Shown piece after piece: positions 3,714 through 60,005 of a DNA stretch of 64,000 nucleotides (position 1 is its first letter; each line of letters starts with the position of its first letter). The stretch is from Hallerella succinigenes (GTDB taxonomy: Bacteria > Fibrobacterota > Fibrobacteria > Fibrobacterales > Fibrobacteraceae): NCBI RefSeq assembly GCF_002797675.1, contig NZ_PGEX01000001.1, forward strand, positions 1,550,001 to 1,614,000, read 5' to 3'. The notes under the pieces were generated by a model. The model was given only the letters and a program-made list of their open reading frames with translations, searched no databases and had not been told where the DNA came from. The position numbers were made by a program, and so were the translations under genes.

Positions 3714-5183
3714 AGTCAATTCACGAGTGCAGGACAAGAGCGTTCGCATTTTTTGTTCATTCCGTTCCACAGAAGGCAAAAACCGTACAGCCATTCCAAC
3801 AGGACAAAAAAACGCCTCATGGCCCTCTTGAAGTTGAACGCCGCTGCTGCAAGCTTTGCATTGAGCATGTCGCCAAAGATTCCCTTGTAGAAGTTGCGAC
3901 CCATGCGGTGGTCGCTCTTCAAGTGACCATTGATTGGTTCGATGCCAGCCCTCTTGCAAAAAAGCTTGTGAGCCTTTTCCTTCTGGTAGTAAGTCGCGTT
4001 TTTCTTCGGAACGTCCGGTATCACGATCTTTGTCGTTCCGGATTCCTTTTGTCCGCGGTAGCCTCGGTCGCATGCGGCCCGGCTCGGCCTGAATCCAAGC
4101 ATTTGTTCAACATGGTCAAGCGTATCGTCTATCGTATGTCCGTCATACTCGTCCCGGAACGAGACCGCGCCGACAATGATGCCGCTGTAGCTCCGGGCGA
4201 TTGACACCTTGTTGCCGAACTCGTATTTCTTGTGTTCCTTGCCCTTGCCGATGCATTTTACTTCGGGTTCGTGAAGCGAATAGACCTTGTCCTTGTCGCA
4301 CCTCTTCTGCTCCAAAACTTTTTTGAAAAGCTCGATTTTTTCTTTGTACGTGTTCAACAAGTTCTTGCTGGCGAGATTTCGCTCTAATTCACGGACGAGC
4401 CGTCCCGCGATTGTCTTCTGCCTGCGATCCGCCTTGTGAGCCTTCTTGGCGTTTTTCGGGTGATTGCGGAAACGCTGGTCACGATGGACCTTCTTCAAGG
4501 TTCTCTTGTAGGACTGTCTCTGCGGAAGGCCGTGTTCTTCCACGATCCTCTGTACCTGTTCTATTATCTTGTTCGCAAGTTTGGCGTCTGTAGGGAACGT
4601 GATGTTCTTTTCCTGCACGGTCGTGTCGAGAAAGACCGTGCCGCTTCCTGTCGGTCCCTTTTTGTCATGGTCGGCATTGACACGGATACTTTCCTTGAGG
4701 ATCATGTCCATGCCCGCTTCGCCAATCATGTGCCGGAAGTGGACAAGTTCGCTCGGGTCGCAGGGCTGCTCCGTCGAGAAGAACCGTTCTCCGCAAAAAT
4801 ACTGGTAATAGGCGTTTTCCTGAAACTGCTCCACGACGGACTCGTCCGATACGTTGCGGATGTGCTTCAGGATGATGAGCCCGGTCATGAGACGGATCGG
4901 CTTGTTTGGCGCACCCATCTTTTCGTCGAACAATTTGGAAAACTCGGTCTCGAACTTGTTCCAGTCAATCTTGTTCGCAAGAACGTAAAGGGGATGCTTG
5001 TGGTTCAACTGTTCCTCAAGGGAGCAGAAAAGGCTTGTCTGGGCGTGGGATTTTGGCGGTCTGTACATGGGAAAAATTGCAAGGTTTTCAGTCATACTTT
5101 AGAAAACCTTGCAATATTTTCACAGGGTAGAAATCAATTTTTCCTAATAGTTATGCAGGCTGGGCGGGATTTTAAGGGACGAC
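3700..5183 (-). mobile_element. Insertion sequence, IS5/IS1182-like
   Basis: An element of about 1.48 kb bounded by perfect inverted repeats contains a single transposase ORF that fills it. TA on both sides fits a 2-bp target duplication, though the symmetrical flanks make the exact boundary ambiguous by a few bases. The element sits exactly at the 3' end of an IS30-type transposase gene, whose stop codon overlaps the right repeat. It looks intact. Confidence 0.8.
3716..5095 (-). CDS. DDE transposase, IS5/IS1182-like
   Basis: The 459-residue transposase has a DUF772-type N-terminal region (about 45-125, with PIRLMTGLIILKHIRNVSD) and a DDE catalytic core. Likely catalytic residues are D157 (FLDTT), D343 (ACDRGYRG) and E386 (GIEPINGHLK followed by DHRMGRN). 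A charged Lys/Arg insert separates the first two acids (about 195-275). The ORF is uninterrupted and nearly spans its element, so the element is probably active or recently active. It ends within a few bases of the left inverted repeat. Confidence 0.9.
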   Translation of the reverse strand: MTENLAIFPMYRPPKSHAQTSLFCSLEEQLNHKHPLYVLANKIDWNKFETEFSKLFDEKMGAPNKPIRLMTGLIILKHIRNVSDESVVEQFQENAYYQYFCGERFFSTEQPCDPSELVHFRHMIGEAGMDMILKESIRVNADHDKKGPTGSGTVFLDTTVQEKNITFPTDAKLANKIIEQVQRIVEEHGLPQRQSYKRTLKKVHRDQRFRNHPKNAKKAHKADRRQKTIAGRLVRELERNLASKNLLNTYKEKIELFKKVLEQKRCDKDKVYSLHEPEVKCIGKGKEHKKYEFGNKVSIARSYSGIIVGAVSFRDEYDGHTIDDTLDHVEQMLGFRPSRAACDRGYRGQKESGTTKIVIPDVPKKNATYYQKEKAHKLFCKRAGIEPINGHLKSDHRMGRNFYKGIFGDMLNAKLAAAAFNFKRAMRRFFVLLEWLYGFCLLWNGMNKKCERSCPALVN

Positions 5184-5189
5184 TAAATA
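5170..5189. repeat. Right terminal inverted repeat of IS5/IS1182-like element
   Basis: The exact reverse complement of 3694-3713. The stop codon of the adjacent IS30-type transposase (5183-5185) lies inside it. Confidence 0.8.
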
Positions 5190-6118
5190 TACTCTAAAGG
5201 GGTCATAAAGTCAAGCCTTTTTCGAGGCCTGTTGTTCAGTTTATCCTGTATCCAGCGAACTTTCCGGGGAGAGATTCCCTTGAACGACTCCTTCTTGGGA
5301 AGATATTGGCGTATTAGACCGTTCATGTTCTCGTTGGCACCGCGCTCCCAGGAGTGGTACGGGTTCGCAAAGTAGTAATCCGCCTTCATAGCTTTCGCTA
5401 TTTCTGCGTGACAGGCGAACTCCTTCCCGTTGTCCGAAGTGACTGTGAGAATCTTGACTTCGAACGTTTTCTCAAAGTCCTTCAGCGCCCTCACAAGCGT
5501 TCTCTTCAGGTCTTTCGCGTTCTTCGTCGGAAGATACCTTATCAGGCTGTAATTCGTCATCCTGTCGTTGATCGTGAGCAGGTTCGCGTCATGGTCCGCG
5601 CTGTTTATCAGGTCTATCTCGATGTCGCCTACGCGTGATTTCTCGTCCACGATCGCCGGACGTTCCTCGATGGGCACGCGGCCTACAATCTGGCCTCTCT
5701 TGTCCTTCTTCTCCCCGCGCTTACGGTATGGTTTCTTGCCGTGCCGCAAGTGCTTCTTCAGGTCCTCGTCCTTGTTCACATGCCTGTATATCGTGGCGAC
5801 GCTAGGGACACCCATCCCATCGAGTTTCGCGCGTCCGTTCACCTGTTCGGGAGAGTAGTCTTCCTTGATTTTCCCGTCCACGATTTTCCAGTCGTCCTCG
5901 TCGTAGTCGTAATGCAGGTGACTTGTCGCGGCAAGGAGGTCTGCCCGTTCCTGCGACTTGACCGGGTCGTAATGCTGGCGGCCGCCGCCCCTGTTTAGTT
6001 CCCTGTAGATTGTGGATTTGTGGACCTTCAGCTGCAAGGCTATGTTTTTCGGGGGGATCTTTGCCGCATTGAGCGCTCGTATTTCGTATCTTTGTGCTTG
6101 GTTGAGACTCACCGCCAT
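5183..6118 (-). CDS. IS30-family transposase
   Basis: This is an IS30-type protein: an N-terminal helix-turn-helix (SLNQAQRYEIRAL...HKSTIYRELNR), then an rve-type core. Counted from an upstream TTG, the catalytic acids are D173 (VGDIEIDLI), D237 (TSDNGKEF) and E271 (GANENMNG). It ends RPRKRLDFMTPLEYI. The ATG at 6118 is preferred; a TTG 24 bp upstream is possible but has no ribosome binding site. The 3' end abuts the neighbouring IS, so the last residues may be altered. If that IS is removed without any duplication the frame reads on as LEYLSQYPL and stops; if TA is a duplication the native stop could be the present one. Confidence 0.88.
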   Translation of the reverse strand: MAVSLNQAQRYEIRALNAAKIPPKNIALQLKVHKSTIYRELNRGGGRQHYDPVKSQERADLLAATSHLHYDYDEDDWKIVDGKIKEDYSPEQVNGRAKLDGMGVPSVATIYRHVNKDEDLKKHLRHGKKPYRKRGEKKDKRGQIVGRVPIEERPAIVDEKSRVGDIEIDLINSADHDANLLTINDRMTNYSLIRYLPTKNAKDLKRTLVRALKDFEKTFEVKILTVTSDNGKEFACHAEIAKAMKADYYFANPYHSWERGANENMNGLIRQYLPKKESFKGISPRKVRWIQDKLNNRPRKRLDFMTPLEYI

Positions 6119-6162
6119 GTCCTTTTTTGGTAGAATCGGCAAGGTAGAAAAGTTTCGGCCAG

Positions 6163-6307: not shown

Positions 6308-6904
6308 TCAGAACGGGAGTTCGTCCGCAGATTCCTTTTTCGCCTGCTTGAGCCCGCGACGGAGTGCCGCGGCGTACTTTTTCTGGACAGGTAACGAGGG
6401 CGGGAGCACGCAAGTCGCATCACAAAGACGAGTGCAAAATTCAGCGTGACCTTTTTCGTCGATGTTGCATGCAACCACGGTGTAAGAGCCGCCAGCATTG
6501 TCAAAATCTTGAACAATCCCAAGCTCAGCATAGTCGTCATAGGCTATCTCGACGAAGTCGCCTTCCTTGAATTTAGCAGTCTCGTCGCTGCCCGTGCACC
6601 ATAGCGAGCCGTCATTCAGGTAACGCCGAATCGAAAGCGGCGCATACGTATCGACAAGGCAATCCCGCGGCATTTCCTTGATGACAAAACCATAAACATC
6701 ATCGCGGTTTCGACGAACGATTTTCTTGATGTTCTTTTCGGCATCGCGCAAGGTCTCGAAATACCCGAGCTTCGTTTGCCAAGTGAGGGCGCATGGACCG
6801 GCACAGCGGTAGCACTTTTCCTTATAGACCTGATATGTATGACTTTCGCCGGGTGCAAATTCGTAAACTTCCAGGACGAAAATGCTTTTTGTTTGTTTTT
6901 TCAT
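6308..6904 (-). CDS. Unknown protein with N-terminal cysteine cluster (operator-linked orphan)
   Basis: The product is 198 residues from the ATG at 6904, chosen because AAGG precedes it and the mapped-by-eye -10 box lies 26 bp upstream; a longer frame to 6952 would overlap that promoter. I recognise no family. It has a Cys-rich patch (CYRCAGPC, residues about 31-38), further cysteines at mid-protein and near residue 160, and a Lys/Ala-rich C-terminal helix ending DELPF. The middle (KFKEGDFVEIAYDDYAELGIV) resembles a small beta-barrel of SH3/KOW type, by pattern only. Its promoter carries the same operator as the AAA/WYL genes at 11.6-15.2 kb, so it probably belongs to their regulon. Confidence 0.65.
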   Translation of the reverse strand: MKKQTKSIFVLEVYEFAPGESHTYQVYKEKCYRCAGPCALTWQTKLGYFETLRDAEKNIKKIVRRNRDDVYGFVIKEMPRDCLVDTYAPLSIRRYLNDGSLWCTGSDETAKFKEGDFVEIAYDDYAELGIVQDFDNAGGSYTVVACNIDEKGHAEFCTRLCDATCVLPPSLPVQKKYAAALRRGLKQAKKESADELPF

Positions 6905-6929: not shown

Positions 6930-6962
6930 AATATACAACGGGAATGCGACAATTAAAGACGC
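6930..6962 (-). promoter_or_regulatory. Shared operator plus -10 box, copy D
   Basis: On the plus strand, GCGAC (6946-6950), 7 bp, then GACGC (6958-6962), a 4-of-5 match to the palindrome. Read on the minus strand, GTCGC is followed by exactly 10 bp and TATATT (6930-6935), giving a leader of about 19 nt before the ATG at 6904. Confidence 0.6.
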
Positions 6963-6981
6963 ATATAGCGATGATTTGTCT

Positions 6982-8256
6982 TCACCGTTCGTCCATAAAC
7001 ATCAGCATATACAGCGGCAGCGTCAATACACTGCCCGTATTGCCAACATTGTAGTTACCGAATTTGATAGCCCTATTGACATGGTATTTTTCGGGGTGGT
7101 TCAATATGGTCTTTACGCTCTTGGCGTTGCCATTTTCGGCCTTGACTTCCATCAACGTACATTCGCCCTTGTGCCTAATGACAAAGTCAATTTCCAGCCC
7201 AGAATCCTTACGGAAATAAAACAGCTTGCGTTTCATTTTATAGAGAATGCTTGCGGCAAGATTTTCAAAAATGGCTCCCTTGTATCCGAGAAGATTTCCG
7301 CGTAAAATATCGCCCTGCGTTCCTTGTTCAAGCATACTGACAAAAAGCCCGATATCATTCATATAGACCTTGAAAACGCTCTTGTCTGCATTGCCTTCTA
7401 GCGGAAGTTCCGTCGTATGTAGGTTGTAGCAGCGTGTAATGATTCCGGCGTCCTCAATCCACTGCAGGCTGCCCGCGAATTTTTCGGCGGTTCCTTTTTT
7501 CTCGATGAGCGAGTATTGGAATTTTTTGTTTTCCTTGGCGAGCTGGTTCGGAATGGAATCAAAACATTCCCTGATGCGAACCTTGTCGGAAGCCGAAGCG
7601 TACTTGACCATATCGTCGCGATAAGAATTGACAATGGATTCCTGCAGTTGGAACACGGTGTCCATTTGGTGGGTGTTTACGAATTCCTGCACGACTTCGG
7701 GCATGCCACCCACAACGGTGTATTGCAGTAGCAGTTGATGCATCCGATTGTGAAGAGCTTCGGGAACAGAAACAACTTGTTCAAAACATTCGCGAAGTTT
7801 CTTGAATACTGGAGGCTGGATATCGTTTGCCCATAGGAACTCTTCAAAATCTAGCGGGTACATCGTAATGACGGTTTCTGAACCGACGGGAATGGATTTT
7901 GGAGGCTTCCCGTAGCCCTGTACTCCCAGTAGCGAACCTGTTCCAATCACGTCGTAACGACCATCTTCCTTGAAAAACTTTAGCGCGGTGCGGGCGTTTG
8001 GAGCATCCTGAATTTCATCCAGGATAATCACCGTCTTGTGAGGCAGAAATTTTGTTCCGGGGATTGTCGCGCCAATTTGCATTGTAATCGTATCTATGTC
8101 AAGCGGGCCTTCGAAAATCTGGGCGTATTCGGGATTCTTGAAAAAATTGAGATAGACCACGCTTTGGTAATTCTTGTGGGAGAACTCTAAAACGGAATGC
8201 GTTTTGCCGCACTGCCTACACCCCTTTATGATAAGAGGCTTTTTGGATGGATTTTT
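6982..8256 (-). pseudogene. DUF4143/AAA_14 ATPase, 5'-truncated
   Basis: About 424 codons of an AAA_14-DUF4143 protein are readable. They include Walker A (GCRQCGKTHSV, near 8180-8220), Walker B (VIILDEIQDA), the sensor region GTGSLLGVQ, and the C-terminal DUF4143 nuclease-like part (FRKDSGLEIDFVI...CTLMEVKAENG). The frame has no start codon before Walker A: it stops at 8257-8259, inside an A7 run. The first usable start, GTG at 8160, would lose the nucleotide-binding loop. Family members normally have some 15-20 more N-terminal residues. I read it as a truncated, probably inactive passenger gene downstream of the VWA operon. Confidence 0.75.
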
Positions 8257-8335
8257 TTAAGCGACTTTCGACAAAAAGACAGACTTTTTCAAAGGACTTT
8301 ACGTAAAAAAGCCGTTTTTTATCAAAAACACCAAT

Positions 8336-8425
8336 TTACGCTTCGCTAGTGCCCTTGACGATTTCGCGCCAGTCATCTTCTAGCAGATTCACCAAGTTTT
8401 TGCTTTGAGTTTTCTTGGCTGGCAT
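8336..8425 (-). CDS. 29-residue ORF, translationally coupled to the VWA gene
   Basis: The ATG overlaps the TGA stop of the VWA gene (ATGA), and a strong GAGGAG ribosome binding site precedes it inside the VWA gene's end. The product begins MPAKKTQSKNLVNLLEDD and ends after 29 residues: a basic N-terminus followed by an acidic amphipathic helix. Such overlap usually means coupled translation. It could be a real microprotein or the remaining start of a longer gene cut by the rearrangement that also truncated the DUF4143 gene. Confidence 0.45.
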   Translation of the reverse strand: MPAKKTQSKNLVNLLEDDWREIVKGTSEA

Positions 8426-9798
8426 CATTCACTCCTCGGAATAAAGGTACCGCGGTTACGCTTGATTTTGCGGATCCACGCGGAATTCGCCATGTAGCAC
8501 TGCCTGCTGCACAGCACCCACAGCACGTCGATGGGGCGCTTGGTGTTGAATTTCGGAGGCGGGGCGTAGCCGTCGGTAAAGTAGATGAGCCCGTCGTATT
8601 CGGGGTGTTCGCAGTAGTAGTCGGCAGCGGGCTGAAAACTCGTACCGCCGCGGCCCATGATCTTCACGGTCTTGCGCGCCTTCTTGAGCGGCTCGATTTC
8701 GCCCTGAATTTGGGCGTCGAACTGCAATACGTCCAACTTCTCGACTCCGTATTTGAAAAGGCGGTTGATAACCGAGAAGAAAAACTGCAGGCTCCTGTCG
8801 GTAACGGACCCGCTTACATCTACCGCGATAAGCAAGTTCGTCGAGAGTTCGTAGCGGCTGCCCATCGCGTCGAAACCGGAACGGCGGTTGGGCCGCATGC
8901 GCGTGAGGCGGCGCCTGCTCGAGATGACCGAGGTCTTGAACAAACTAAGCATCTTGCGGTAGTCCATGTCGACTTTCAGGCTTGCCTTGATGAGGCCCTG
9001 CAACTTGCCCGCGACGGAGCCCCAGTTGTTGCTCGCGGTGGCGACTTCGATAAACTCGTTTATGTTGCAGCAGGCCTCCTCGTTTTCTTCCCAGAGTTCC
9101 GAGATTTGCGAGTCGCGATGTTCCTGCGAATTGCCGGCGCCGGAATTACCCGAAGCGCCCGAACCCTTGCCACCGGAGCCGCCGCCGTTCCGGCCAGAAC
9201 TGCCGCGCGAATCACTGGAAGCGTCGCCAGAATCTGCGCCGCTCCCGTCGCTACCCTGTTGTCCGGATTGACAGCCTTCCTGATTGCCGTTGCCGGAGCC
9301 ATCGCCATCTTGCCCAGACTTGTCGCCCCGGCCGGAGCCACTATCCGTTTTCTGCGGCTCGTCGCCAGACTTTCCTGAATTCGGTGTCGCACTTTGCAGG
9401 AGCAGATTGTAGTATTCCTCAAAACACAGCCCGCTGGGGAGCTTCAGTTCTGCACCGCTCATCTGTTTCTTCACTTCTCGCGAGACATCGTACACATCGG
9501 CAATCGTCACGTTGCTCGCCATGGTCAGCAGGGCCTTCGCGGCAAAGGAGGGCTGTCGCTGGTAGGGGTGCTTGAGCAATATGCGGAACATCTCGATTTT
9601 CATGTATTCCGCCAGCACGTCGTCCGCAATCCTGTCCAGGATTTTCGGGGAGAATTCCACCTTCATGTTGCCGGTTCTCATCGGTACATCAATCGAATTA
9701 TTTTCCACGAATTCGTGACAGCAATAAACCGCAAACAACAGCGGCTCCGTCAGGAACCACCGCTCGCCGATTTTCTTTATTCTGTCCAAGGCGTTCAT
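8425..9798 (-). CDS. DUF2201-type VWA protein, partner of MoxR ATPase
   Basis: The 457-residue protein has three parts. The N-terminal region (about 1-135) resembles the metallopeptidase-like DUF2201 N-domain, but where HExxH is expected the sequence reads IEMFR (68-72). Then comes a Gly/Ser/Asp/Asn low-complexity linker (about 139-228). The C-terminal part is a von Willebrand A domain with MIDAS motif DVSGS (327-331) and a later MGRGGTSF and YFTDG (T and D of the MIDAS). VWA proteins next to MoxR genes act as substrate or metal-dependent adaptors of the ATPase. It lies 7 bp after the MoxR gene on the same strand, so they are very likely co-transcribed. Confidence 0.85.
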   Translation of the reverse strand: MNALDRIKKIGERWFLTEPLLFAVYCCHEFVENNSIDVPMRTGNMKVEFSPKILDRIADDVLAEYMKIEMFRILLKHPYQRQPSFAAKALLTMASNVTIADVYDVSREVKKQMSGAELKLPSGLCFEEYYNLLLQSATPNSGKSGDEPQKTDSGSGRGDKSGQDGDGSGNGNQEGCQSGQQGSDGSGADSGDASSDSRGSSGRNGGGSGGKGSGASGNSGAGNSQEHRDSQISELWEENEEACCNINEFIEVATASNNWGSVAGKLQGLIKASLKVDMDYRKMLSLFKTSVISSRRRLTRMRPNRRSGFDAMGSRYELSTNLLIAVDVSGSVTDRSLQFFFSVINRLFKYGVEKLDVLQFDAQIQGEIEPLKKARKTVKIMGRGGTSFQPAADYYCEHPEYDGLIYFTDGYAPPPKFNTKRPIDVLWVLCSRQCYMANSAWIRKIKRNRGTFIPRSE

Positions 9799-9805
9799 AC
9801 CGACC

Positions 9806-10876
9806 TTAAATTGACTGGATGAATTGCGTGATTTTCTTGTACAGTTCGGGACACTTCATGATGACAAGCGTCATGGCAGCCGGGTACATCGAGGAGGAAT
9901 ACAGGTTTGCGAAATGCGCCTGCGCCTCGCGGAATTTTTCGCCTGAAAGGAATTCAAAGTATGCGGCGAAGTTCTCTATCACCTTCGCCTCGTCCTTCGC
10001 GTCATAGCCCTTCGTCTCGATAAAGCGGAACACGGACTCGTTCACGGAGGCAAGTTCCGGCGTGGTGCACTTCTTGATTGCCGACTTCTGCTTCGCGAAA
10101 TCGCCGAGCAGTATATCCTTCGCGCTGGGGAGCCTCTTCTGCTTGATTGTCGCGAAGAACTTCGATGCGGCAGGCATCCCGATGATGCCTGCTATGACGG
10201 TCTTTAAAAGCGCAGACACTTCGTTTGTCTGTAACACCTTCGAGACGCGTTCCCACCCGCGCCTGTCGGGCGACTTTTCGAGCCCCTGGTCCTCACGGGT
10301 AAAGGCGGCACCGTCGAGCATGTCTGGGTTTTCCGAGATGAAGTCGATAACGCGAGAATCGAGCCCCGCCTTGGATGCCCACAGGAGCCATTCCTGCGCG
10401 GTAGGCTTGAATTCGTAGATGTTGAAGCGGCTCACGAGCGCCGGGTCCAAGTCCGTGAGCTGGTATTCCTCGCCGTCGTTCACCGCGCTAATCACGCGGG
10501 AGCCCTCTGGCAATTTACGGCCCGCAAGAGTCCGGTTGAGCGTCAGGTCCATGATGGTCTGCAAAACCTCCGGGCGGGCGCGGTTCAGTTCGTCCAAAAA
10601 AAGTACCACGGGCTTGCCGTCCGTCGGGAACCAGTAAGGCGGCATAAAGTGAGTCTTGCCGGTCGCCTCGTCGAGACGCGGGAGCCCAATCAAATCGCCC
10701 GGATCGCTCATCTGCCCGAGGAAAAGAATCACCACGCGCTCGCCGCGCGCCGTGAAGTACTTTTCCAAAATCTGCGACTTGCCGATTCCGTGCTTGCCCG
10801 TGAGCATTATGTTCTGCGATGCGGGTGTCGCTGCTAACAGCTTTTCCAGTCCTAGCGCATTTATATGTACCGCCAT
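9806..10876 (-). CDS. MoxR-family AAA+ ATPase
   Basis: The 356-residue AAA_5/MoxR ATPase shows Walker A GKHGIGKS (27-34), the MoxR helix-2 region after GQMSDPGDLIGLP, Walker B VLFLDELNRA (91-100), sensor 1 SAVNDGEEY, and the arginine-containing ALVSRFNIYEF. Length and architecture fit MoxR proteins that work as chaperone-like ATPases with VWA partners. It lies between an unknown gene (13 bp upstream) and the VWA gene (7 bp downstream). The ATG at 10876 follows AGAGGAT. Confidence 0.93.
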   Translation of the reverse strand: MAVHINALGLEKLLAATPASQNIMLTGKHGIGKSQILEKYFTARGERVVILFLGQMSDPGDLIGLPRLDEATGKTHFMPPYWFPTDGKPVVLFLDELNRARPEVLQTIMDLTLNRTLAGRKLPEGSRVISAVNDGEEYQLTDLDPALVSRFNIYEFKPTAQEWLLWASKAGLDSRVIDFISENPDMLDGAAFTREDQGLEKSPDRRGWERVSKVLQTNEVSALLKTVIAGIIGMPAASKFFATIKQKRLPSAKDILLGDFAKQKSAIKKCTTPELASVNESVFRFIETKGYDAKDEAKVIENFAAYFEFLSGEKFREAQAHFANLYSSSMYPAAMTLVIMKCPELYKKITQFIQSI

Positions 10877-10889
10877 ACAATCCTCTTGT

Positions 10890-11603
10890 CTATTTTATTA
10901 TCTCTATATTCATCGAAAATGTCAATTTTTTTGTCAAAATTTCTATCTGACCGAGCACATCGGGCAATTCCGCGACCCGCGTGGTGAAATTTTTGCGGTT
11001 GAGTGTAAACTCGATCCTGGTTCCGCGCCCTCCAATCTTAAGCAAGAAATCCCGTTCTCGTTCGACCAGGTCCCAACGGTATCCCATCGGTGTAAGGAGC
11101 TGTGAAACGGTCGCCTGGATGCCGCTCTTCGCCATCTCCTCCAGCTTGTTATTTTTCTCGAATTCAAGTTTCTTTCGTTCGAGCCCTTCCATGTACCGCG
11201 GGAAATTGTCGATGAAATTTTCAAAGTTGCTTATTGTCTGCGTCAGATCGCAATTCGCTTCCGTCCGGAAAAACGGCATAAAGCCCTCTATTTCGAGACG
11301 AACATGAAAATTGCCTGACAAACAGAATTCAATCGAACCGACCAAACCGAGCTGCCGGACAATCCTGATTCCAGCAATTTTGTCGCCCTGCTGGAAGAAT
11401 TCACCCGAACCCTTACCCGTCCTAACTATAATGCATTCGCATTCGGGGTGACGTTCTTTAAGTTCATTGTATACGCTGAGAACCTCTCCCTCGGAAGGTA
11501 CGCAACCCCGCTCGCCAGGCACAAGAATCCCGTTGACCAGTTTTTCCCAGTACTTACGGGCAAACTGGTCAAAAGACCGCTCTTTGGACTTTTTTTTGAT
11601 CAT
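10890..11603 (-). CDS. Unknown protein with coiled coil, first gene of the MoxR-VWA unit
   Basis: A product of about 237 residues that I do not recognise. The N-terminal half is mixed (DQFARKYWEKLVNG, then beta-rich segments around GSIEFCLSGNFHVRLEI). Residues about 135-165 are a charged helix likely to form a coiled coil (YMEGLERKKLEFEKNNK). The C-terminal part is beta/alpha (IEFTLNRKNFTTRVAELP). The ATG at 11603 is preferred to the GTG at 11609 because the operator-linked -10 box ends at 11620, leaving a leader of about 10 nt. It is followed within 13 bp by the MoxR gene, so it probably contributes to the same complex, for example as substrate or recognition subunit (inference). Confidence 0.7.
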   Translation of the reverse strand: MIKKKSKERSFDQFARKYWEKLVNGILVPGERGCVPSEGEVLSVYNELKERHPECECIIVRTGKGSGEFFQQGDKIAGIRIVRQLGLVGSIEFCLSGNFHVRLEIEGFMPFFRTEANCDLTQTISNFENFIDNFPRYMEGLERKKLEFEKNNKLEEMAKSGIQATVSQLLTPMGYRWDLVERERDFLLKIGGRGTRIEFTLNRKNFTTRVAELPDVLGQIEILTKKLTFSMNIEIIK

Positions 11604-11619
11604 AATCACCTACATATAC

Positions 11620-11652
11620 AATATAGCATACGCAAGCGACAAATAATGACAT
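11620..11652 (-). promoter_or_regulatory. Shared operator plus -10 box, copy A
   Basis: GCGAC at 11636-11640 is followed on the plus strand by AAATAATG, identical to copy C for 13 bp; the second half-site is degenerate (GACAT). On the minus strand GTCGC, 10 bp, then TATATT (11620-11625). Confidence 0.6.
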
Positions 11653-11688
11653 TTAGCACCATCCCCAAAAAATCAAAAAATTTGTTTT

Positions 11689-12705
11689 TTAGCCGTAAAC
11701 CGAGCGCAAGTACTCCCCATATTCCTTGAGGCGCTTTTGCAGCGACGCCGGCTTTACTACGCGGGCGGTAGTTGAGAAAGAAGTGATCCAATTCACCAAA
11801 AGCTGGTTCACCTCGGCCTTCATTTTCACCTGGATTTTGGCATTACGCAACACCCGCATGTGCATGGAGCGGTTGAACTTATTTTCCATAAGGTAGTTAC
11901 GAACTTTCAAATCGAATTCGATTTCGATATCTTCGGGATGCGGCTCCTGTTCACTCATGAACGCCGCTCCCGATTCAACCTGCCTGCGCAACTTGTCAAT
12001 CACCTTCGGATTTTCGACGAAGGGTTCCTTGGAAAGCTTGACTTGTACTATTCGGCGGAATTTCAGAGTGTAGGTGGCTTCCTTGACTTTTTCCGATTCG
12101 CAGGCCACATAGATTTCGTTTTGATAGACGATAATCATCAGGGGAATGCGGGTGGACTTTCTTTGCGAAGCCGATGCCCCCATGTAAAATACATCTATTT
12201 TGCGGTGCTCGTGGATTGCCCGAAGAATGATCCGCAATTTTTCACTCGCATCTTCTTCGAAATCCGGCGGCGTACCCATGAAAAGAATTTTCGTATTCAG
12301 TTCGCTGCTGAGTTGACCGAGTGATTTCTGCTCGCTGGCCGGGAGACTTCTCTCGATGCGCTCCAAGAGTTGCGTGATAATTTCGCTTGTCGCGGGGTAG
12401 ATATTCGCGATACGCTTGAGGAATACGAAATGGAGCATCGTATTTTCAAAATCCGGGAACACGAGCCGTTCGGCATTGCGGAGCGCGGAACGATAAACCG
12501 CAGTTCTGCCCTCGGTCTCGACGGCAATGTAACGGCTAGCATCCATCTCCGAAAGGAACCGCATGTCGCGCTGCACATTGCGACGTTCGCCTTCGGGAAC
12601 ATTCAGCGACGACATCAAGTCCTTCACGGTAAATTTCTTGTCCGGGTTCGAAATCACCTTCGCAAAAAGTTGCACAGTCCTTTCGCCGCGAGTCATGTCT
12701 GCCAT
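11689..12705 (-). CDS. WYL-domain transcriptional regulator
   Basis: The 338-residue protein has the usual WYL regulator layout: an N-terminal winged helix-turn-helix (about 1-75; FTVKDLMSSLNVPEGERRNVQRDMRFL), a linker, a WYL domain (about 150-240; LRIILRAIHEHRKIDVFYMG through YTLKFRRIVQVKL), and a C-terminal WCX-like region (about 265-338). WYL proteins sense ligands, often nucleic acid or nucleotides, and commonly control phage-defence and DNA-damage genes. The ATG at 12705 has AGGAG 5 bp before it. It lies between the tandem-AAA gene and the MoxR unit, and carries the same operator in its own promoter, so autoregulation is likely. Confidence 0.9.
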   Translation of the reverse strand: MADMTRGERTVQLFAKVISNPDKKFTVKDLMSSLNVPEGERRNVQRDMRFLSEMDASRYIAVETEGRTAVYRSALRNAERLVFPDFENTMLHFVFLKRIANIYPATSEIITQLLERIERSLPASEQKSLGQLSSELNTKILFMGTPPDFEEDASEKLRIILRAIHEHRKIDVFYMGASASQRKSTRIPLMIIVYQNEIYVACESEKVKEATYTLKFRRIVQVKLSKEPFVENPKVIDKLRRQVESGAAFMSEQEPHPEDIEIEFDLKVRNYLMENKFNRSMHMRVLRNAKIQVKMKAEVNQLLVNWITSFSTTARVVKPASLQKRLKEYGEYLRSVYG

Positions 12706-12730
12706 ATATACTCCTAGATTTGTCCTCTAT

Positions 12731-12763
12731 CAAATATATATAAAACGCGACAAATGGCGTCGC
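12731..12763 (-). promoter_or_regulatory. Shared operator plus -10 box, copy B (WYL gene promoter)
   Basis: A perfect palindrome GCGAC (12747-12751), 7 bp, GTCGC (12759-12763). On the minus strand it is followed after exactly 10 bp by TATTTG (12731-12736), giving a leader of about 19 nt with AGGAG before the WYL start. Confidence 0.65.
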
Positions 12764-12781
12764 ATTATGAAGCTCAGCTCC

Positions 12782-15112
12782 TTACAATCCCATAGTTCTA
12801 CCTTCGCGACCATCCTTGTAAGCCATTTCGGACTTGAGGGCGTTCAAGATGGTATCAGCAGAGAGTTCGCTTTCGTCGTAAAAGCGGAGTGTACCGTAGG
12901 CAGCGTTAAAGTCGCCGGGGGCAAGCATACGCATATTTCTTGCGGCATCGGGGCAGGACACCGAAGGGAAAAAGCCGCGCCAAAGAGCCTCGATTCCTTC
13001 GGGCTTGAGATAGCCGAACTTCACCTTGAGCGCAAAGCGACGGCGGGAGGCCATATCAAGCGTGCCGTCAAAATTCGTAGCGGCGATAAAGATCCCCTTG
13101 AAGTTTTCCATTTGCGTGAGCATCTCGTTCACCTGAGTCACTTCCCAGCTGTGATTTGCGCCATTGCGGTCACGAATCAAGCTATCGGCTTCGTCAAGGA
13201 ACAAGATAGCCTTCGACTCCTCGGCCTCCTTGAACATTTTGCGGATGTTCTTTTCGGTGCCGCCCACATAACAGTTCAGCAGGTCGCTCGCCTTCTTGAC
13301 CACCAGCTTGCGGTTGAGCGTTCGCGCGAGGTGTTTCGCGAATTCGGTCTTGCCGGTACCCGGCGGCCCGTAAAGGAGCATATTCAGGCTATCGGGGCGG
13401 TCAACCTCCTTCATCTGCCTCCACCTGGCATCAAAGGCGGACATTGTCTTCAAAAGCCTGGGTATATCGGCATCGATGTTGAGCGCATTTAACATATAAC
13501 GCGGCGCGCGACTTTCCTTGTCGCGGTTCACGTATTCCAAATCCAGTTCCAAAAGTTCCGCCTGCGCCTCGGCAATGGTACGCACGCTCTGCACAGGATC
13601 CATGTCGCAACCCGCCAAGACAAGGCGCTTCGTGCCAGCCACGGCTTGCGTAATGCCTCCCGCCGTAATCGGCAATTCCGCCGAAAGCTGCCTGATGGTA
13701 TCTTGCGACAGGAGCGACTTTGCATCCTGTTCACGAACCACCGACTCCCACACCTGCAAACGTTTTTCGGCATCGGGACGTTCAAAATGGATGGAATAGT
13801 CAAAGCGACGCAAGGTGCTTTTTTCAATATTCTCCACCATGTTCGAAATCCAGATGACGGGCACCTTGATCTGTTCCAGGAAAAAGTTGAGCGCACCCTT
13901 TTCGCAGTTGTTCAGAATGATGTCAGATTCGTCGACAAGCAAGATGGCCTTCTGGTTCTGGTACTTGGTGGCCGCAAAAAGGATACTCCCCATACGTTCC
14001 TGAAGAGACTCGTTTTTAAGACTGTTCCTGTGAATCCCTTTGGTGCTAATGTTCGTCAGCACCAAGGGACGGTGCAGCTTGCTGGCAATCGATTTGGCAA
14101 GTTCCGTCTTGCCGGTTCCTTCAACACCGTAAAAGAATAGGTTGAGTCCTTGTCCCTTAGAAGCGTACTTGAGCAGATTAAAGGCTATCTGAATTTTTGG
14201 ATTGTCACGACAAAGCGTCTTGAACGGAACGGAACCGCCTTCGTAAACCTGAAAATAAAGCGAATCGAGGTCATCGCCCGACTGCCCATCCAGAAAACGG
14301 TCGGTGCGCAGCGTCGTATCCAAGTGGTCATCGAGTATGCCCATCTGCTTAAGAGACCCCCGGCATGAAATCGCCTTTTCAAATTCAAATTCAGGGAACA
14401 ACATCGGAAAAATATCAGACGGCGACGGATCGCTAAACCGGTTGTCGGACTTAAAAGTCCGCAAAAGGCATTCACACTGCGTCTTGTTGAAGAAAATCCA
14501 CGAGAACATAAGGATTTCCATTTCGGTGTCGTTCAGGCAGAAACTTCGCTGCATAATATTCAGACGCCTGACGTAGTCGTCATGGAAGTTCGGATTGTCA
14601 AACAAAATCGTGACGAGTTCATCGATTACACAGTCGTAAAAGACCTTTTGGGCGCTCCTGTCGAAAATACCCTCGCCATTCAGGTAGCTTTCGACGTATG
14701 CACTGACTTCGGAGCCTGCGCAACCGCGCTCCACGAGGTATTTAAAACGGTTCATGGCCTTGCGGCGGCGCTGGTAGGCAATGGACTTATTTTCGTCGTC
14801 ACTATCAATACGTTTTCCGATATACTTGTCGTTGGACTCCTTGATAAAAGCCAGGCGCTCGCACGTCGACATAGCGTCTTCTTCCTCGTTGAGTTTCGCA
14901 AAATGCGCCGAAAGAGCGCTGAGGATTCGAGCAACGCCCTCTTTAGGAAAAATTCGGATACAGTCATCGGCATCGGGATAGCACTTGGAATAGCGAATTA
15001 CACGAATCCAGTATTCGTAGGACTTGAGCAGGATAAAGTTAAGGGAGGCTTTGGTGTCGGCTTTGAGCGACAGCAGGGAATTTGCGACACACTTAAAATA
15101 ATCAGGCCTCAT
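12782..15112 (-). CDS. Tandem AAA+ ATPase
   Basis: The 776-residue protein has a helical N-terminal region of about 300 residues with no recognised domain, followed by two AAA modules. Module 1: Walker A GVEGTGKT (329-336), Walker B ILLVDESD (390-397). Module 2: Walker A GPPGTGKT (582-589), Walker B ILFLDEAD (637-644), sensor 1 IAATNFD, and arginines SRRRF near 690. Both modules keep their catalytic residues; the second looks like the classic FtsH/spastin-like clade. Tandem AAA proteins form hexameric remodelling machines. It is the first gene of the island, with operator copy C upstream. The specific role is unknown. Confidence 0.88.
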   Translation of the reverse strand: MRPDYFKCVANSLLSLKADTKASLNFILLKSYEYWIRVIRYSKCYPDADDCIRIFPKEGVARILSALSAHFAKLNEEEDAMSTCERLAFIKESNDKYIGKRIDSDDENKSIAYQRRRKAMNRFKYLVERGCAGSEVSAYVESYLNGEGIFDRSAQKVFYDCVIDELVTILFDNPNFHDDYVRRLNIMQRSFCLNDTEMEILMFSWIFFNKTQCECLLRTFKSDNRFSDPSPSDIFPMLFPEFEFEKAISCRGSLKQMGILDDHLDTTLRTDRFLDGQSGDDLDSLYFQVYEGGSVPFKTLCRDNPKIQIAFNLLKYASKGQGLNLFFYGVEGTGKTELAKSIASKLHRPLVLTNISTKGIHRNSLKNESLQERMGSILFAATKYQNQKAILLVDESDIILNNCEKGALNFFLEQIKVPVIWISNMVENIEKSTLRRFDYSIHFERPDAEKRLQVWESVVREQDAKSLLSQDTIRQLSAELPITAGGITQAVAGTKRLVLAGCDMDPVQSVRTIAEAQAELLELDLEYVNRDKESRAPRYMLNALNIDADIPRLLKTMSAFDARWRQMKEVDRPDSLNMLLYGPPGTGKTEFAKHLARTLNRKLVVKKASDLLNCYVGGTEKNIRKMFKEAEESKAILFLDEADSLIRDRNGANHSWEVTQVNEMLTQMENFKGIFIAATNFDGTLDMASRRRFALKVKFGYLKPEGIEALWRGFFPSVSCPDAARNMRMLAPGDFNAAYGTLRFYDESELSADTILNALKSEMAYKDGREGRTMGL

Positions 15113-15196
15113 TTACACCTCCATTTTTGCGGTTTTCACATGGAGCCGCCATTATATATCGCCTTTTTAATCCAAATTGTCAAAAAGTTCGATAAA

Positions 15197-15229
15197 AATA
15201 TAGGAGATGTACGCGACAAATAATGTCGC
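15197..15229 (-). promoter_or_regulatory. Shared operator plus -10 box, copy C (tandem AAA promoter)
   Basis: A perfect palindrome GCGAC (15213-15217), AAATAAT, GTCGC (15225-15229). On the minus strand it is followed after exactly 10 bp by TATATT (15197-15202). The leader to the AAA start would be about 78 nt. A second possible promoter (TTGACA with an over-long spacer to TATAAT) lies nearer the gene. Confidence 0.65.
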
Positions 15230-28388: not shown

Positions 28389-28461
28389 GCCAAAGTAGCT
28401 CAGCTGGTAGAGCAGCTGATTTGTAATCAGCCGGTCGTAGGTTCGATTCCTATCTTTGGCT
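28389..28461 (+). tRNA. tRNA-Thr (anticodon TGT)
   Basis: A full cloverleaf of 73 nt: acceptor GCCAAAG/CTTTGGC, D-loop AGCTCAGCTGGTAGAGC, anticodon arm CTGATTTGTAATCAG, T-arm with GGTTCGATTCC. CCA is not encoded. Confidence 0.95.
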
Positions 28462-28469
28462 TGAGAAAA

Positions 28470-28552
28470 GGGTCGTTGCCCGAGTGGTTAAAGGGGACGG
28501 ACTGTAAATCCGTTGACTTACGTCTACCGTGGTTCGAAACCACGACGGCCCA
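28470..28552 (+). tRNA. tRNA-Tyr (anticodon GTA)
   Basis: A class II tRNA with a long variable arm, 83 nt: acceptor GGGTCGT/ACGGCCC, anticodon loop CTGTAAA, T-loop GGTTCGAAACC. CCA is not encoded. Confidence 0.93.
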
Positions 28553-28562
28553 CGCGAAATAG

Positions 28563-28592
28563 CTCCCCCCGTTGCGAATGTAACGGGGGGAG
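28563..28592 (+). other. Perfect 11-bp hairpin between tRNA-Tyr and tRNA-Thr
   Basis: CTCCCCCCGTT and AACGGGGGGAG pair perfectly around an 8-nt loop. It lacks a T-run, so it is not a standard terminator. It could be an RNA-processing signal or the scar of a lost tRNA; in E. coli a tRNA-Gly occupies this slot. Confidence 0.7.
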
Positions 28593-28598
28593 ATTAAT

Positions 28599-28670
<72 letters not shown>

Positions 28671-28694
28671 CTATATAATTCGGAGGCTATAATT

Positions 28695-29879
28695 ATGGCA
28701 AAAGAACATTTTGAAAGAACCAAGCCGCATTGCAACATTGGCACAATCGGCCACGTTGACCACGGTAAGACGACCCTGACGGCCGCAATTTGCACGACTC
28801 TCGCTGCAAAGGGCCTCGCTGCTGCAAAGAAGTTCGATGAAATCGACAATGCACCGGAAGAAAAGGCTCGTGGTATCACGATCAATACCTCCCACGTGGA
28901 ATATCAGACTGCAAACCGTCACTACGCACACGTCGACTGCCCGGGGCACGCCGACTACGTCAAGAACATGGTGACCGGTGCCGCCCAGATGGACGGCGCA
29001 ATCCTCGTCGTCGCGGCGACTGACGGCCCGATGCCGCAGACCCGCGAACACATCCTTCTCGCCCACCAGGTCGGCGTTCCTAAGATCGTCGTGTTCCTGA
29101 ACAAGTGCGACATGGTCGACGATCCGGAACTCCTCGAACTCGTCGAAGAAGAAGTCCGCGACCTCCTCAAGCAGTACGGCTACGACGGCGACAACACCCC
29201 GATCGTCCGCGGCTCCGCGCTCAAGGCCCTCGAAGGCGACGCAGAATACCAGGAAAAGATCATGGAACTCATGGCTGCTGTCGACGAATACATCCCGCAG
29301 CCGGCACGCGAAACCGAAAAGCCGTTCCTCATGCCGATCGAAGACGTGTTCACGATCACCGGTCGCGGCACCGTCGCGACGGGCCGTATCGAACGCGGCA
29401 TCGTCCGTCTCAACGACAAGGTCGAACGCATCGGTCTCGGCGAAACCACCGAATACGTCGTCACGGGCGTGGAAATGTTCCGCAAGCTCCTCGACGACGC
29501 CCAGGCAGGCGACAATGTCGGCCTCCTCCTCCGCGGCGCAGAAAAGAAGGACATCATCCGCGGCATGGTTCTCGCCGCTCCGAAGTCCGTCACCCCGCAC
29601 GCCCACTTCAAGGGCCAGATCTACGTTCTCAAGAAGGAAGAAGGTGGCCGTCATACTCCGTTCATGAACGGCTATCGTCCGCAGTTCTACTTCCGCACGA
29701 CCGACGTTACCGGTACGATCAAGCTTCCGGAAGGCATCGAAATGGTGACTCCGGGCGACACCGTCACGATCGACGTCGAACTCATCGCACCTGTTGCTAT
29801 GGAACAGCAGCTCCGCTTCGCAATCCGCGAAGGTGGCCGTACGGTCGGTGCTGGTTCCGTCACTGAAATCATCAAGTAA
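28695..29879 (+). CDS. tuf: Elongation factor Tu (copy 1)
   Basis: The 394-residue EF-Tu delivers aminoacyl-tRNA to the ribosome. GTPase motifs are [37 protein letters not shown] and SALKALEG, followed by domains 2 and 3 ([21 protein letters not shown]-like [18 protein letters not shown] at the end). The start is the ATG after CGGAGG; an upstream in-frame extension crosses the tRNA and is rejected. The protein is identical to copy 2 at 58.8 kb, and the genes differ at only about six synonymous positions. Its strong C-ending codon bias shows high expression. Confidence 0.98.
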
Positions 29880-58820: not shown

Positions 58821-60005
58821 ATGGCAAAAGAACATTTTGAAAGAACCAAGCCGCATTGCAACATTGGCACAATCGGCCACGTTGACCACGGTAAGACGAC
58901 CCTGACGGCCGCAATTTGCACGACTCTCGCTGCAAAGGGCCTCGCTGCTGCAAAGAAGTTCGATGAAATCGACAATGCACCGGAAGAAAAGGCTCGTGGT
59001 ATCACGATCAATACCTCCCACGTGGAATACCAGACTGCAAACCGTCACTACGCACACGTCGACTGCCCGGGGCACGCCGACTACGTCAAGAACATGGTGA
59101 CCGGTGCCGCCCAGATGGACGGCGCAATCCTCGTCGTCGCGGCGACTGACGGCCCGATGCCGCAGACCCGCGAACACATCCTTCTCGCCCACCAGGTCGG
59201 CGTTCCTAAGATCGTCGTGTTCCTGAACAAGTGCGACATGGTCGACGATCCGGAACTCCTCGAACTCGTCGAAGAAGAAGTCCGCGACCTCCTCAAGCAG
59301 TACGGCTACGACGGCGACAACACCCCGATCGTCCGCGGCTCCGCACTCAAGGCCCTCGAAGGCGACGCGGAATACCAGGAAAAGATCATGGAACTCATGG
59401 CTGCTGTCGACGAATACATCCCGCAGCCGGCACGCGAAACCGAAAAGCCGTTCCTCATGCCGATCGAAGACGTGTTCACGATCACCGGTCGCGGCACCGT
59501 CGCGACGGGCCGTATCGAACGCGGTATCGTCCGTCTCAACGACAAGGTCGAACGTATCGGTCTCGGCGAAACCACCGAATACGTCGTCACGGGCGTGGAA
59601 ATGTTCCGCAAGCTCCTCGACGACGCCCAGGCAGGCGACAACGTCGGCCTCCTCCTCCGCGGCGCAGAAAAGAAGGACATCATCCGCGGCATGGTTCTCG
59701 CCGCTCCGAAGTCCGTCACCCCGCACGCCCACTTCAAGGGCCAGATCTACGTTCTCAAGAAGGAAGAAGGTGGCCGTCATACTCCGTTCATGAACGGCTA
59801 TCGTCCGCAGTTCTACTTCCGCACGACCGACGTTACCGGTACGATCAAGCTTCCGGAAGGCATCGAAATGGTGACTCCGGGCGACACCGTCACGATCGAC
59901 GTCGAACTCATCGCACCTGTTGCTATGGAACAGCAGCTCCGCTTCGCAATCCGCGAAGGTGGCCGTACGGTCGGTGCTGGTTCCGTCACTGAAATCATCA
60001 AGTAA
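58821..60005 (+). CDS. tuf: Elongation factor Tu (copy 2)
   Basis: The 394-residue protein is the same as copy 1 at 28.7 kb. The nucleotide sequences differ at only about six third-codon positions, and the match continues about 17 bp past the stop into the ribosome binding site of the next gene, while the upstream sequences are unrelated. This is what gene conversion between duplicated tuf genes produces. It is preceded by GAGGAAAAA and followed by rpsJ. Confidence 0.98.

Follow-up and report, generated by a model that had tools for sequence, protein, structure and literature searches.

In this study we analysed a 64,000-nucleotide stretch of the Hallerella succinigenes genome (hereafter the window: positions 1550001-1614000 of a 3.13-Mb single-contig genome) and found that four promoters in it, here called sites A to D, carry a common operator at one exact distance upstream of the -10 box. 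These four sites are very probably promoters that depend on activation by a WYL transcription factor of the DriD type, encoded at 11689-12705. By analogy with DriD, a regulator of Caulobacter crescentus, this presumed activator, akin to a DNA-damage sensor, is likely a new member of the DriD-type WYL activators, and the system is most probably a regulon of the DriD type with positive autoregulation rather than one under a repressor. Support at the level of sequence comes from the sites, their spacing, their phylogenetic coupling to the WYL family, the identity of operator and register with those of DriD and the domain architecture. From DriD and PafBC we infer activation and the sensing of single-stranded DNA (ssDNA), and we likewise infer binding by the WYL protein and the biological role. 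In the mechanism that we propose, a nucleic-acid signal, probably ssDNA, would occupy the WYL domains, and the WYL dimer would bind CGWC-N7-GTCG centred near -31 (about -39 to -23). Lying over an absent -35 element, the dimer would substitute for -35 recognition and hold a sigma-70-type RNA polymerase at the TATATT -10 box. Seven promoters of this genome would be activated in this way, namely those of the WYL gene itself, of two tandem AAA+ genes, of a p239-MoxR-VWA operon and of three genes of unknown function, and because site B drives the WYL gene the activation would be self-amplifying.

Phased sites and their fixed spacing

Re-reading of the sequence places the four sites where a preliminary description of this DNA had put them. 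They are given here as read on the minus strand:

Site C, 15197-15229, minus strand, predicted promoter of the tandem AAA+ gene; operator 15213-15229, -10 box 15197-15202: CTT GCGAC ATTATTT GTCGC GTACATCTCC TATATT
Site B, 12731-12763, minus strand, predicted promoter of the WYL gene; operator 12747-12763, -10 box 12731-12736: AAT GCGAC GCCATTT GTCGC GTTTTATATA TATTTG
Site A, 11620-11652, minus strand, predicted promoter of the p239-MoxR-VWA operon; operator 11636-11652, -10 box 11620-11625: TAA ATGTC ATTATTT GTCGC TTGCGTATGC TATATT
Site D, 6930-6962, minus strand, predicted promoter of a 198-aa gene; operator 6946-6962, -10 box 6930-6935: TAT GCGTC TTTAATT GTCGC ATTCCCGTTG TATATT

In each of them exactly 10 bp separate GTCGC from TATATT (A, C and D) or TATTTG (B), as had been described, and the operator spans -39 to -23 when the first base of the hexamer is taken as -12. 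Counted on the forward strand, the first 13 bp of site A are the same as those of site C. A further perfect palindrome, which the preliminary description did not list, lies at 13508-13524 within the AAA+ gene and has no -10 box at that distance.

In the window the palindrome alone is not enriched (40 matches with up to two mismatches, 37.9 expected), nor is TTGTCGC-N10-TANNNT (6 matches with up to one mismatch, 4.25 expected). The combined pattern CGWC-N6-TGTCGY-N10-TAWWTT gives 5 matches with up to two mismatches against 0.63 in shuffles, none of 100 shuffles reaching 5; these five are the four sites plus a second match to C on its other strand. Over the whole genome, exact TTGTCGC-N10-TANNNT has 8 matches and its reversed control also 8, so that the pattern must also specify the distal half and the sequence of the -10 box; the remaining exact matches that we inspected lie inside long reading frames. 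When exact and one-mismatch searches were judged together with gene context, the genome scan suggested in the preliminary description, run by pattern and over stretches of the genome, yielded three further convincing sites, which gives seven in total:

Site 855738: GCGAC-GCTATTT-GTCGC-N10-TATTTT, before a 223-aa gene
Site 862300: ACGAC-ATTATTT-GTCGT-N10-TATTTT, before the second tandem AAA+ copy
Site 2241597: GAGAC-AGTATTT-GTCGC-N10-TATATT, before a 274-aa gene

Two of these three belong to a second WYL/AAA+ island, whose AAA+ gene (behind 862300) is 56% identical to the window copy and adjoins a second WYL gene, itself 53% identical; the 274-aa gene behind 2241597 has homologues located in WYL islands of other genomes. 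Each of the sites outside the window is either part of a WYL/AAA+ island or precedes a member of a gene family known from such islands. With seven sites only, the motif is not spread over many unrelated promoters of the genome, the outcome that had been named as speaking against the proposal.

The decisive evidence for the fixed spacing comes from relatives. In 40 loci (624 kb) around the stronger WYL homologues, taken regardless of motifs, we counted 224 CGWC-N7-KTCG cores, and TAWWTT lies exactly 11 bp past GTCG (10 bp past GTCGY) in 67 of them, against a mean of 0.72 boxes at each of 40 other distances. The controls, four palindromes of scrambled sequence and four with an altered half-site spacing, give 0 boxes at this distance, and in 26 further hold-out loci from genome contigs 46 of 126 cores have the box at the exact distance, against a mean of 0.40 elsewhere. 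The arrangement of operator and -10 box is not due to chance. The strict pattern has about 130 matches in 101 relatives against 3 in the reversed control and, with a stricter -10 box, about 135 matches in 168 genomes of the phylum against 1; since the genomes are related, these comparative counts, of sites as of genomes, are not independent events. A profile of 133 sites, in which every position specified by the search pattern is necessarily invariant, reveals a nearly invariant proximal TTGTCGY and a strong TATATT in fixed register. No -35-like hexamer is conserved in it between operator and -10 box, in agreement with the earlier remark that a consensus -35 is missing. The term palindromic operator, used in the preliminary description, holds fully for C and B, which are perfect 5-7-5 palindromes, and nearly for D, which has one mismatch, but it does not extend to the distal half in general, which varies (CGAC, CGTC or TGTC). 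Even where no distal CGWC is present, 22 copies of TTGTCG have the box 11 bp further on, while any other distance has about 1.4. The operator therefore has its core in the proximal half, accommodates changes in the distal half, of which site A is an example, and does not require exact symmetry. In at least five loci a single palindrome is flanked on either side by a -10 box 10 bp away and serves divergent genes (L086 7854/7858; L090 2084/2088; L094 7610/7614; L097 7752/7756; L098 7335/7339), as would be expected for a dimeric activator. Upstream of many operators there is also an A/T-rich stretch at about -59 to -50, possibly an UP element.

The WYL protein and known WYL regulators

The proposed reader of the operator is encoded between sites A and B:

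11689-12705, minus strand, WYL transcription factor, 338 aa, with a winged helix-turn-helix (wHTH), a helical linker region, WYL and WCX (Pfam WYL and WCX above cut-off)

Compared with the PDB, the AlphaFold (AF2) model of this protein matches DriD first (Foldseek E 2.6e-15), ahead of PafBC, CapW and BrxR. Its C-domain aligns with that of DriD at VIA Z 15.7 and a root-mean-square deviation (rmsd) of 4.5 over 190 residues; against full-length DriD (8tp8), 276 residues align with Z 14.5 and rmsd 14.6, the placement of the domains being different. A PDB search with the single sequence found no WYL protein, and a profile search found PafC and DriD. Two residues of the protein, K215 and R218, are basic and invariant in 30 homologues and align with the ssDNA-contacting arginine pair R201/R204 of PafC, as read from the alignment; in PafBC and SiwR, ssDNA binding requires two WYL-domain arginines. 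In the recognition helix, R42/R46 share with the pairs R44/R48 of PafB and R38/R42 of SiwR their spacing only.

DriD is an ssDNA-activated WYL activator that binds the consensus ATACGAC-N7-GTCGTAT over the -35, all of its sites being at one distance from the -10 box. Three of its promoter sequences (didA, CCNA_03891 and bapE) have been given, with G at -14 in all three (PMC12340889). Aligned by operator they read GGCGC-N10-CAAGGT (didA), GTCGC-N10-CAATCT (CCNA_03891) and GGCGC-N10-CAAGCC (bapE), and this register, GYCGC-N10-hexamer, is that of the present sites. Common to both systems are the operator core CGAC-N7-GTCG (exact in C and B, with a degenerate distal half in D and A), an operator that overlaps the -35 at a single fixed distance from the -10 box, and the architecture of wHTH, three-helix bundle (3HB), WYL and WCX. 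They differ in phylum, in the -10 boxes, which are good here (TATATT) and weak in the DriD system, and in the genes concerned, AAA+/MoxR/VWA islands here and didA, bapE, recJ and dnaG in the DriD regulon. The PafBC motif of the mycobacterial PafBC/RecA-NDp promoter, tTGTCRgtg-8-TannnT (PMC5656591), has TTGTC 12 bp before TA. This spacing of the proximal half-site, TTGTC-N12-TAnnnT, and its -26 position recur in our sites, which suggests a geometry of this half-site common to DriD and PafBC. The full motif TTGTCRGTG-N8-TANNNT is not reproduced, as RGTG is not kept and the sites read TTGTCGY. PafBC is moreover a heterodimer with a non-palindromic motif, whereas here there is a pseudo-palindrome and one WYL gene per locus: the window cluster holds no second WYL gene, and the two WYL homologues found in the genome lie 0.7 Mb apart, although their products might still pair as a heterodimer. 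SiwR of Mycobacterium smegmatis resembles the proposed system in being a WYL activator that works as a homodimer and has its imperfect palindrome next to the target genes, between -35 and -10, but it has another operator sequence (GGA at -26) and a single target operon.

The preliminary description had allowed for a regulator acting at about -39 to -23 either with or against RNA polymerase. This is best resolved as 'with', because the sites share operator and register with DriD, an activator, their spacing is that of the PafBC motif and no -35 is conserved. In a repressor system of the BrxR/CapW kind the operator would instead block RNA polymerase until a ligand releases the WYL protein. BrxR and CapW are WYL-fold regulators tied to defence islands, WYL repressors of such islands bind inverted repeats, and the present islands hold defence-like genes. 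We nevertheless regard repression as improbable, since a repressor would not have to keep one exact distance to the -10 box, fixed here to the base, and would usually be expected over a functional -35; in addition, BrxR recognizes longer repeats of a different type and both repressors have less structural similarity to our model than DriD. If the four sites are DriD-type activator promoters, an architecture so far detailed in one alphaproteobacterium now appears in another phylum with over 100 phased sites, and it would offer a sequence rule for recognizing WYL-activated promoters without experiments: TTGTCGY-N10-TATATT, with, more loosely, CGWC 7 bp before GTCG. Among the papers in the library searched, none pairs Fibrobacter with a WYL domain.

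Coupling of the sites to the island WYL family

WYL homologues are patchy among the relatives, being found in 49 of 101 at E <= 0.001, about 35 of these at E < 1e-15. Strict sites track this family: in 61 family genomes, the numbers with both a strict site and a strong WYL match, with the WYL match only, with the site only and with neither are 28/5/1/27 (Fisher p = 3e-11), which supports the earlier proposal that the encoded WYL protein is the regulator. The autoregulation proposed with it gains support from site B, which stands before the WYL gene, and from 21 of 118 strict sites in relatives that precede a WYL gene; the second-island WYL gene keeps a TATATT box and not the operator. The bases flanking the operator follow the WYL clade, with GTCGCAT in clade I, GTCGCAGTA in clade II and GTCGTG in clade III. 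The second-island sites of this genome (GTCGCAGTCA and GTCGTAGTAA) have the clade II signature and stand beside a clade II WYL gene, and the flanks differ even between the two islands of this one genome. Such agreement between flanks and island WYL clade also supports the WYL protein as the regulator. The set occurs outside the family as well: in loci L112 and L110 a WYL-profile match, weak in L110 (E 2e-4), adjoins a tandem AAA+ gene with such operators. In genome contigs, at that scan's sensitivity, WYL relatives were found only in Fibrobacter, Fibrobacteraceae and Fibrobacterales records, and none were found in viral contigs.

Another DNA-binding protein, such as a second WYL regulator or a special sigma factor, might read the operator, and a second, more distant WYL protein (matches at about residues 155-328) is widespread in the family. 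We consider this less probable still, because genomes with only the second WYL protein lack strict sites, the flank signatures go with the clade of the island WYL and the -10 box is of the sigma-70 type. The LexA-type box of Fibrobacter, TGCNCN4GTGCA, is absent from the window.

Several points weigh against assigning the four sites to a DriD-type activator. Site A has a poor distal half and site B a weak -10 box, five family genomes encode the WYL protein but lack a strict site, and in one genome with a site no WYL protein was detected. The cryo-electron microscopy source for DriD is a preprint, and its promoters were put in register here via the operator. Finally, the AF2 model is of moderate confidence (mean pLDDT 74.8), the overall identity of the WYL protein to DriD is about 15%, and one of the two WYL-domain arginines is a lysine here (K215).

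Genes behind the sites

Besides the WYL gene, the following genes of the window lie behind the sites:

12782-15112, minus strand, tandem AAA+ ATPase, 776 aa (Pfam AAA, two stretches), behind site C
10890-11603, minus strand, p239 family protein, first gene behind site A (an upstream GTG start at 11609 is also possible)
9806-10876, minus strand, MoxR-like AAA_5 ATPase (Pfam AAA_5), second gene behind site A, a short gap from the p239 gene
8425-9798, minus strand, VWA-like DUF2201 protein (Pfam DUF2201 and DUF2201_N), third gene behind site A, a short gap from the MoxR gene
6308-6904, minus strand, 198-aa protein behind site D, with ATG at 6904 (a longer TTG reading frame would begin inside the operator)

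A homologue of the 198-aa protein lies behind a site in locus L070. The first genes behind the 118 strict sites in relatives are most commonly AAA+ genes (23), followed by the 21 WYL genes, Fic-domain genes (8), a 223-aa family (7), a DnaB_C-domain family (5), p239 (4), a PLD-domain gene (4) and many singletons, among them PD-(D/E)XK (PDC-S26), a GTPase, a topoisomerase IV A fragment and a DNA polymerase III (Pol III) alpha finger domain. That the sites are ordinary promoters, with the palindrome as a recurrent by-product of shared promoter ancestry, is hardly credible: many sites do precede homologous genes and so are not all independent, and the window by itself has about as many palindromes as chance predicts, but more than 20 unrelated gene families lie behind the sites, the phasing holds across families of the phylum and the spacing tests in the 40 and 26 loci speak strongly against it.

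The model of p239 is confident (pLDDT 85). No fold is given to this protein, because Foldseek returned no match below E 0.001 and the best VIA match (Z 7.9) is an unrelated designed protein. Nor do we call the tandem AAA+ protein IetA, since the scores of the IetA models (PADLOC 161 bits; NCBIfam 151 bits against a cut-off of 510) fall on generic AAA regions. In other loci, a PD-(D/E)XK gene directly behind an operator (L117:3639-4835) matches the PADLOC candidate defence family PDC-S26 (E 6e-91). A GyrA/ParC-like fragment of 345 aa behind a WYL operator (L095:10549-11583, also L183, L192 and L195) has Phe for the catalytic Tyr in all copies seen (AAMRFTE; GyrA of its own genome has AAMRYTE). 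DnaB_C-domain proteins behind WYL operators (L128:4681-6030, L136 and L147) combine a new N-terminal part with a P-loop of unusual sequence, GVGMKT or GIGMKT, and a free-standing Pol III alpha finger domain of 247 aa lies behind a WYL operator at L194:2447-3190, with a homologue in L189. The second island of the present genome (L034:842-4552 and 9304-10347) adjoins a DUF3584 gene (SMC-like, with a weak JetC match) and has an HNH nuclease gene.

The patchy presence of the regulon islands, their several copies per genome and their gene content suggest, as a lead, that they are stress or conflict islands. A more specific possibility, which we put forward tentatively and consider rather doubtful, is an inducible conflict system. 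In such a system a nucleic-acid-sensing, self-amplifying WYL activator would turn on AAA+ machines along with inactive look-alikes of replication proteins (DnaB with the altered P-loop, the GyrA/ParC fragment with Tyr replaced by Phe and the free-standing Pol III finger domain), which might jam or decoy phage or plasmid replication. In the NTPase conflict systems of Kaur et al. we found no mention of DUF2201 or Fibrobacter. If the signal is ssDNA, the regulon would link ssDNA sensing to AAA+/MoxR/VWA islands of unknown function. These islands come and go between related Fibrobacter genomes, and the operator rule would be a ready way to define their gene content.

Two other features of the window were seen. 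Adjoining the regulon genes, at 3716-6142, are two open reading frames (459 and 319 aa) that look transposase-like by eye. Pattern matches at 28770-29525 and 58896-59651 recur at a near-constant offset of about 30126 bp, which indicates a long direct repeat; the tRNA cluster at 28389-28671 and an EF-Tu start in L005 suggest that it consists of two tuf copies.

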